58,355 nucleotides of DNA, taken from positions 1-58,355 of the forward strand of contig JAJPIP010000031.1 of assembly GCA_021324655.1 (NCBI GenBank), given 5' to 3'. Source of the stretch: Pseudomonadota bacterium (GTDB taxonomy: Bacteria; Chloroflexota; UBA5177). The notes below the pieces were generated by a model, which was not told the origin of the DNA, did no database searches, and worked only from the letters and a program-made list of their open reading frames with translations. The position numbers were made by a program, and so were the translations under genes. This document shows, piece after piece, positions 53,489 through 55,568 of the stretch. Every line of letters begins with the position of its first letter. Positions within the stretch are counted from its first letter, which is position 1.

Positions 53489-54028
53489 TCAGTGTGAGAG
53501 CGTGATGTGCTGTCCGGTCCTCAGCGCGGCCACGAGTTTGTAGGGAGCGCGCAGGTGTCCGCGGACCACGTATCGGTAGTTCGCGCTGTGATGGGCGCGG
53601 ATCATGGTGTGATTGACGCGCGCACCGTGGGCATAGATCACGAAGCCCTTCAGGTTGTGCTGCGTCAGCATCCGCCAGCTAAAGATGGTCGAGGCGTGCG
53701 ACGTGGTCACGCCGAACCGCATCAGACTGGGTGCCGGCACTGCGGCGAGAGGGACGGTCGTCGCGGTGGCCGTCGCCGTTCCCGATACGACCGCGGTGGA
53801 CGTGGCGGTTCCGGCCACTATGGTGGGCGTCGGGGTACAGGCGACCGCGGTGGCGGTCGCCGTGGCAGTTGCTGTAGCGGTGCCCGTCGGCGTCGCCGTG
53901 CAGGTGACCGATTGGAACGCATTCGACGCCTGAACGACTCTGCCCCCTGACCCGATGATGGCAGACAGTACAACCCCCGCCACCAACAGTAGAGACAAAC
54001 CCGCGAGCGCAATGTATCGCCGTTTCAT
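53489..54028 (-). CDS. Secreted or anchored protein with Thr/Ala-rich repeats
   Basis: This 179-residue protein has an N-terminal hydrophobic helix (IALAGLSLLLVAGVVLSAI), then a low-complexity Thr/Ala/Pro stretch (about 40-100). A C-terminal domain of about 75 residues begins PSLMRFGVTTSHASTIFSWR and ends LVAALRTGQHITLSH. Such Thr-rich stretches are usually cell-wall spacers and are likely glycosylated. The C-terminal domain, with FVIYAHGARVNHTMI, has an Ig-like or fibronectin-III-like look but no firm match. A GGAGG site precedes the ATG, and a strong terminator follows. Confidence 0.65.
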   Translation of the reverse strand: MKRRYIALAGLSLLLVAGVVLSAIIGSGGRVVQASNAFQSVTCTATPTGTATATATATATAVACTPTPTIVAGTATSTAVVSGTATATATTVPLAAVPAPSLMRFGVTTSHASTIFSWRMLTQHNLKGFVIYAHGARVNHTMIRAHHSANYRYVVRGHLRAPYKLVAALRTGQHITLSH

Positions 54029-54203: not shown

Positions 54204-55568
54204 ATGTCCCTTAATATGATGCGCGTTGCCGTCTTCATCGCGGTGGTCGGTCTCGCCTTGCCCGGCAGTGCGCTCGGTAGGTCGGCGTCGGCGATGCATC
54301 TGTCCTCCAACCGGTGGGTGCTGCGGGACAGCCGCATCGCAGCCGGTCTCGAGGCGCATGGGGTCCGCGCGGCCACCTCGTGGCTTCGCCGCCGGCCGGA
54401 GGTTATGGGCGTGTCGGTGGGCCGCGACCATCGCACTCTCCTCGTCCGATTCCGGAACCGCGCGCCGATCGTCATCCTCCCGCGCGGCAGCGTGCCGATT
54501 CACTTTCCTTCCCTCCACCTGCCGCTTCATTTTGCGGCGAGTGGAACCCATGCCGCCGTTGTCCTCGAGCCTTTTACAACCGATACGTCCGGGCAGTCGG
54601 TTGTCGATGCGCTGACCGCGGCCGGCGCGACCGTCGACAGGTACCAGGACGCTGCCGTCACCGTTCCGCTGATGGAGCGCCTCGCGGGTTATCCCGTGGT
54701 CTACCTCATCGACCATGCGGGCGTCCTCTCCAACGGCGATGCCGTGATCGCCACCGGCGATACGGCGACCTCTCCCTACGGGCCATTCTTCCAGGACGGA
54801 AGTCTCGTTCAGGTCTTTGTCGCCGGCGACCGGACGCAGCGGCTCTACGATGGGGTCACCAGCAAGTTCTTCGAGCTGCATGCCGGCCCCCTGCCGTCGG
54901 GAAGTCTCTGGATCCTCAACGGCTGCAATGTGTTGGCGGCGCCGGGGTTCTGGACCCACATGCATGCACTCGGGCTGGACACGCTGGTCTCCTGGACCGG
55001 TGAAGTTTCCATCGGCGAGGCCGAGCAAGCGGGGTCGGCACTGGTGTCGGCTCTTTCCTCCGGCGCGACGGTGTCCAGCGCGATCGACACGCTCAGCGCC
55101 CAGGGACTCGCCACGAGCCAGTACCAAACGAAGTTCGATTTCGACGGCGACGGCGGACAGACGCTGGCCGGAGCCTTCTCCGGCGCCGCCCCCACCCCCA
55201 CGCCCGGTCCCTCTCCGACCACAACGCCGTCAGGCTCGTCGGTCCACTTGCTGGGCGTCGCCGTCCTCACGCGGGTACACGGGCACTTTGTCGCCGCCCA
55301 CGCGGCGCGCCTCGGTGAGGGCCTGATCTTCGAGCTGCGCTTCCGAGCCACCGGCGGAGCCGCCCGTCCGGCTGGACGGGTGGAGATCGTGAAGCGGGGA
55401 GGCGTCCTCGCGCGGTACGCCCTTCATCAGACCGGTCCGGGGATGATGCGCGCTCGTGCCACGCTCCGGAGCCGTGGCGACGTGGGCCACCTGACGGTCC
55501 GATTTCATCTGCATGCTGGAACCGCGACTGTCACCCGGACCTACGGGCTCCGTATCAGCGGGATATAA
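54204..55568 (+). CDS. Secreted protein with possible caspase-like His/Cys dyad
   Basis: This protein of 454 residues has a signal peptide (MMRVAVFIAVVGLALPGSAL). The middle shows two strand-turn motifs typical of caspase-fold peptidases: YPVVYLIDHAGVLSNGD with His171, and GSLWILNGCNVLAAPGFW with Cys241. These are followed by LVSWTGEVSIGEAEQAGSAL and a helix. A Pro/Thr linker and a C-terminal beta domain of about 120 residues follow. The family could be CHAT-, C25- or C11-like; I could not place it. The ATG at 54204 is preferred for the signal peptide; TTG at 54159 is possible. A terminator follows. Confidence 0.6.
   Translation: MSLNMMRVAVFIAVVGLALPGSALGRSASAMHLSSNRWVLRDSRIAAGLEAHGVRAATSWLRRRPEVMGVSVGRDHRTLLVRFRNRAPIVILPRGSVPIHFPSLHLPLHFAASGTHAAVVLEPFTTDTSGQSVVDALTAAGATVDRYQDAAVTVPLMERLAGYPVVYLIDHAGVLSNGDAVIATGDTATSPYGPFFQDGSLVQVFVAGDRTQRLYDGVTSKFFELHAGPLPSGSLWILNGCNVLAAPGFWTHMHALGLDTLVSWTGEVSIGEAEQAGSALVSALSSGATVSSAIDTLSAQGLATSQYQTKFDFDGDGGQTLAGAFSGAAPTPTPGPSPTTTPSGSSVHLLGVAVLTRVHGHFVAAHAARLGEGLIFELRFRATGGAARPAGRVEIVKRGGVLARYALHQTGPGMMRARATLRSRGDVGHLTVRFHLHAGTATVTRTYGLRISGI

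Follow-up and report, generated by a model that had tools for sequence, protein, structure and literature searches.

The window, that is, the whole stretch of DNA analyzed (58,355 nucleotides), contains an uninterrupted reading frame for 454 residues that runs from an ATG at position 54204 to position 55568 on the plus strand (window coordinates), a frame favored by codon-position GC. We took the ATG at 54204 as the start, although alternative starts lie at TTG 54159 and at ATG 54216 and 54219. The predicted protein consists, in order, of a signal peptide, a small N-terminal domain, a catalytic domain, a Pro/Thr-rich linker, and a C-terminal beta domain. The gene stands alone between unrelated neighbors: the divergent upstream gene (53489-54028, minus strand) encodes a small secreted, Thr-rich protein, and the downstream gene, on the opposite strand, encodes a PAP2 phosphatase. 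The product of the upstream gene carries a long Ala/Thr repeat and falls into no confident family. The features of the gene are as follows.

54204..54278, plus strand: signal peptide, residues 1-25 (MSLNMMRVAVFIAVVGLALPGSALG), the only strongly hydrophobic stretch
54309..54479, plus strand: N-terminal domain, residues 36-92, a possible propeptide or regulatory domain (AlphaFold2, profile search)
54540..55202, plus strand: catalytic domain, residues 113-333, with a predicted caspase/CHAT-like fold (AlphaFold2, Foldseek, hhalign)
54714..54716, plus strand: His171 codon, the predicted catalytic His after beta3 (invariant in 32/32, aligned with the CHAT His)
54771..54884, plus strand: family-specific insert between beta3 and beta4, residues ~190-227, motif LYxxITxxF (spacing, predicted structure)
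54924..54926, plus strand: Cys241 codon, the predicted nucleophile after beta4 (invariant in 32/32, aligned with the CHAT Cys)
54993..54995, plus strand: Trp264 codon at the end of beta5 (loop L5), a likely S1-pocket aromatic (invariant in 32/32)
55209..55301, plus strand: Pro/Thr-rich linker, residues 336-366 (sequence; pLDDT <50 over residues 336-370)
55302..55565, plus strand: C-terminal beta domain, residues 367-454 (eight predicted strands; homology)

The signal peptide, Pro/Thr linker, and C-terminal beta domain described in an earlier note on this DNA are thus all present. Strongly hydrophobic 19-mers are confined to residues 1-26, and the hydrophobic N-terminus ends, as judged by eye, in a plausible signal-peptidase site (ALG). 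The same note had placed a catalytic His and Cys in IDHAG (54708-54722) and NGCN (54918-54929), and each motif does end a hydrophobic strand, with His171 and Cys241 where they had been claimed.

We assessed conservation of these residues in 32 divergent catalytic domains, whose pairwise identity falls as low as 19%. Only three columns of this alignment are invariant, namely His171, Cys241, and Trp264, so the check that the earlier note had set on its own proposal, conservation of the His and the Cys in homologues, came out as 32/32 for both. Because both are invariant even though His and Cys account for only 1.8% and 0.6% of the residues in these domains, the placement of the two motifs is not a matter of chance. 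Among the 14 close sequences, position 171 is the only invariant His and position 241 the only invariant Cys, while an alignment of 21 sequences retained G141, H171, C241, and W264; Cys241 is also the sole cysteine of the 454-residue protein. Trp264 has counterparts elsewhere, as clan CD enzymes have a conserved aromatic residue on loop L5 (PMC4357240) and a Trp is likewise invariant at the corresponding position of our CHAT controls. The His motif reads mostly xTHSG in the family and IDHAG in the window protein, and its Asp is not conserved; some distant relatives lack the Gly two positions after the His (HADR, HVAR), which is unusual for clan CD. The window copy is itself divergent in sequence, as is shown by its long branch and by its IDHAG where most relatives read xTHSG. 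Such divergence around the His would fit a catalytically dead caspase-fold scaffold, as in pseudo-orthocaspases, and pseudo-variants are known among prokaryotic caspase homologues (PMC6426788), but with His and Cys unsubstituted in 32 sequences and among the three invariant residues we regard loss of catalysis as highly improbable.

Structure prediction with AlphaFold2 gave a confident model of the catalytic domain alone (pLDDT 93.5, pTM 0.90), and the core of the full protein was predicted at a pLDDT of ~93. In the model, beta3 (165-169) is followed by His171, beta4 (234-239) is followed by Cys241, and Trp264 ends beta5, the order of elements being b1-a1-b2-a2-b3(His)-small strands-a3-insert-b4(Cys)-a4-b5(Trp)-a5-a-b6. 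The clan CD layout has a sheet of order 2-1-3-4 with alpha1-3, His after beta3, and Cys after beta4 (PMC4357240), and the predicted element order matches it; the spatial strand order 2-1-3-4 would be present as well, as judged through Foldseek matches rather than coordinates. When the domain model was searched against the PDB with Foldseek, DdvA and SAVED-CHAT led the matches (E 7e-5 to 3e-4), and all five matches at E<=0.001 were CHAT proteins (8rw5, 8rot, 8tl0); a CHAT sequence profile confirmed the CHAT domains in the CHAT-named PDB entries and in DdvA. Lower matches included Csx29, TPR-CHAT, the caspase drICE, and separase. A fold check set beforehand thus returned the caspase element order, the dyad at the ends of beta3 and beta4, and CHAT proteins as the best matches, although TM-scores to the CHAT structures were only ~0.5, with an rmsd of 5-8 A. 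In BFVD, two uncharacterized viral proteins (A0A1P8DJ94 and A0A8S5MXG5) match the domain fold at E<1e-3.

Flavodoxins also appeared among the Foldseek matches (E ~1e-3), as they would if the domain had another alpha/beta fold, such as a flavodoxin-like one, with a His and a Cys placed by chance. However, the flavodoxin alignments covered ~155-180 columns with a query TM of 0.26-0.35 and ranked below the leading CHAT matches (206-240 columns, TM 0.46-0.55), making this explanation scarcely credible; no flavin-site signature came to notice either. A search with the full-length protein was set aside, since its matches were dominated by Ig-like and flavodoxin structures because of the C-terminal beta domain; the decisive search was the one with the model of the catalytic domain alone.

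The distance from His171 to Cys241 is 70 residues, and the earlier note's statement that a spacing of about 70 lies within the range of CHAT-type proteins was contradicted by the controls: spacings were 40-54 residues in 15 control CHATs, 43-61 in C14, 32-47 in C25, and 42-63 in C11, whereas family members have 68-107. The longer spacing is due to a conserved, family-specific strand-helix insert (LYxxITxxF), in which strands 201-204 and 215-219 and a helix at 220-227 are predicted.

The description of the protein as belonging to no named family held, in that the window protein gave no match in Pfam, even at E 10, or in NCBIfam. Neither the protein nor its catalytic domain scored against Pfam CHAT (PF12770, gathering cut-off 24 bits), and no Pfam or profile match of the window protein to peptidase C25 (PF01364), C11 (PF03415), or C14 (PF00656) was found. 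Pfam scores among the 32 members were limited to weak CHAT scores in two (best E 3e-4) and a weak C25 score in one, a distant relative (E 0.021); the distant relative L046 reached 20.4 bits against CHAT (E 4e-4), below the cut-off. In profile-profile comparison with control families drawn from the same phylum, hhalign aligned two family profiles to CHAT at probabilities of 86% and 72% (E 5e-6 to 3.5e-5), with the family dyad superposed on the CHAT dyad in both alignments, as against 0.1-0.8% for C25, C11, C14, and reversed controls. The profile check proposed against CHAT, C25, and C11 therefore favored CHAT, with C25 and C11 below 1%. With a slightly different CHAT set the probability dropped to 48%, and at the sequence level the protein is tied to CHAT only weakly. 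Profile searches against PDB sequences gave chance matches only, and the CHAT, C25, C11, and C14 profiles found no match in the protein's own genome or in four genomes of the same taxonomic family. Taken together, these comparisons suggest a CHAT/caspase-fold-like peptidase that nonetheless lies, by sequence, outside Pfam CHAT, C25, C11, and C14.

Searches for relatives recovered four paralogues in the same genome (E 3e-35 to 4e-50) and nine homologues in four other genomes of the same taxonomic family, and a profile built from 14 close members led to distant relatives elsewhere in the phylum. A profile of the distant relatives was positive in 25/245 genomes, all of one class, and dozens of membrane-anchored distant relatives occur across the phylum. 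In the tree, many inner branches of which are weak, the five copies from the window's own genome do not cluster together, and the expansion therefore seems to predate the genera. Each of the 19 distant relatives examined carries one transmembrane segment ahead of the catalytic domain, and the flank N-terminal to it carries a net positive charge in all but one (L078), so the catalytic domain is predicted to lie outside the cell. Close members begin with a hydrophobic segment and differ in their tails. All family members thus appear, from these sequence features, to reside outside the cell or on its surface. A further candidate, L006, from a single-protein search of genome contigs, was rejected because the matching stretch (HQTGPGMM) is short, arose by chance, and belongs to an unrelated protein that resembles a coiled coil, and other IDHAG-coding sites in the genome were likewise unrelated. 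In another lineage, L048:739-2532 (minus strand) encodes a 598-residue protein with a caspase-like GHG...HC core and a stretch resembling the N-domain, possibly a link to other clan CD proteins. Our literature search, which covered few subscription journals, found no paper on extracytoplasmic CHAT peptidases.

The N-domain (residues 36-92) is predicted to fold as helix-helix-strand-strand, with a pLDDT of ~71-94 over most of its length. Its significant profile matches fall in this family only, where 12/14 close members have it and L011 and L026 lack it. The C-terminal beta domain, for which AlphaFold2 predicts eight strands at low to moderate confidence, shares homology with the C-terminal ends of two sedolisin-type proteins encoded in the same genome and with those of proteins from two relatives. 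The two same-genome proteins, S53 sedolisin-type products of L012:1468-3375 and L013:1447-3369 (both minus strand), carry Pro-kumamolisin activation domains and end in the beta domain, as does a similar protein of a relative, L157. Thus, the earlier view of a modular enzyme with a C-terminal beta domain stands as to the presence of the domain, while the domain is not specific to this enzyme, being found also on sedolisin-type proteases. Other tails comprise longer beta-rich repeats (L009, L017, L023, and L024) and short, basic, cysteine-bearing stretches after the Pro/Thr linker (L008, L014, L015, L021, and L026, such as KKGACKPGHHRSHGKCVKTHH), which could be wall-binding or metal-binding. Given their differing tails, the five paralogues resemble a suite of extracellular proteases targeted in different ways.

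Clan CD includes ligases and sorting enzymes, with legumain-type or PorU-type members acting as transpeptidases or ligases. Since the beta domain is shared with sedolisin-type proteins and the whole family appears to be extracytoplasmic, the dyad could be catalytic yet serve to process or attach secreted proteins, such as those bearing the beta domain. However, the enzyme itself carries this domain, most of the close paralogues do not, the presence of the domain in three proteins of the genome is rarer than would be expected of a sorting signal, and there is no profile match to C25; we consider a transpeptidase or ligase very unlikely. A broader proposal, that the protein is a surface processing or transpeptidation enzyme of a new, wholly extracytoplasmic clan CD family that matures or anchors secreted proteins (for example, the beta-domain sedolisins) rather than digesting food protein, seems to us quite unlikely.

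Regulatory CHAT proteins, among them the transmembrane anti-sigma factor DdvA, give the best structural matches, and the membrane-anchored distant relatives have little besides the catalytic domain. Both observations would suit a regulatory surface protease that cuts one specific partner, such as an anti-sigma-like or envelope protein, upon a signal, as Csx29 and possibly DdvA do. Against this, the genes on either side of the window gene are unrelated, we saw no partner gene conserved among the 14 close loci, and a sigma/anti-sigma-like gene pair (L186:9413-10743, read from sequence) lies near only one of them, L026, so we judge a dedicated regulatory role unlikely. Pairs of secreted-type proteins adjoin two family members in two genomes (L179:7199-8850 and L184:4971-6618, both plus strand), the L179 pair being Ferritin_2 by Pfam and the L184 pair mutually similar by sequence. 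PADLOC gave no match for the window catalytic domain, hence no sign of a known defense system, and a plasmid search found none.

At its core the protein very probably has a cysteine protease with a caspase (CHAT-like) fold. The predicted fold and the invariant dyad support the caspase-fold peptidase proposed in the earlier note, and from them we infer proteolytic activity. More specifically, the protein is probably a Sec-exported cysteine endopeptidase whose caspase fold is closest to that of CHAT domains, and the data are best read as pointing to a new family of clan CD that is CHAT-like and extracytoplasmic. In such an enzyme, Cys241, activated by His171, would attack the peptide bond, and Trp264 would line the S1 pocket. 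The N-domain might conceivably keep the enzyme as a zymogen, with the flexible stretch at ~93-115 as the presumed cut site for its removal. The Pro/Thr linker and beta domain may tether the enzyme to the cell surface or to its substrate, a role that the domain would also play on the sedolisins sharing it.

Caspase-fold enzymes have been studied mostly for their intracellular roles in regulating death and immunity, or as secreted proteases of the gingipain and clostripain type. The family described here, which is unannotated, appears to keep a CHAT-type dyad outside the cell, both as secreted multidomain proteins and as membrane-anchored ones; genomes carry several copies each, in a lineage in which CHAT, C25, C11, and C14 were not detected (five genomes searched). 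If active, it would represent a new branch between the CHAT and gingipain uses of the caspase fold and would give a name to dozens of unannotated proteins.

Clostripain (C11) and the caspases and orthocaspases (C14) share the fold class and the dyad placement with the window protein, and drICE is among its fold matches, but they show no profile similarity to it, have a spacing of 42-63 residues, and are unmatched in the window genome. Gingipains and their relatives (C25, PF01364) resemble it in being secreted and modular, with an extra N-terminal domain and an Ig-like beta domain, and in having a caspase fold, a His/Cys dyad, and a Trp on L5 (PMC4357240); they differ in hhalign probability (0.1-0.4%), in spacing (32-47), and in the length of the C25 profile, which has 374 positions compared with ~220 for the domain. 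CHAT proteins (PF12770: Csx29/TPR-CHAT, SAVED-CHAT, and DdvA) provide the best fold match, with His following beta3, Cys following beta4, Trp at the end of beta5, and a similar helix pattern following the Trp. In contrast with them, the window protein has no Pfam CHAT score, a spacing of 70 rather than 40-54 residues, an extra conserved strand-helix, predicted export, and an N-domain of its own. Most CHAT proteins of solved structure are cytoplasmic effectors in which the domain is joined to TPR or SAVED parts. For TPR-CHAT, the corresponding dyad is H585/C627, and mutation of C627 abolishes activity (PMC9729208).
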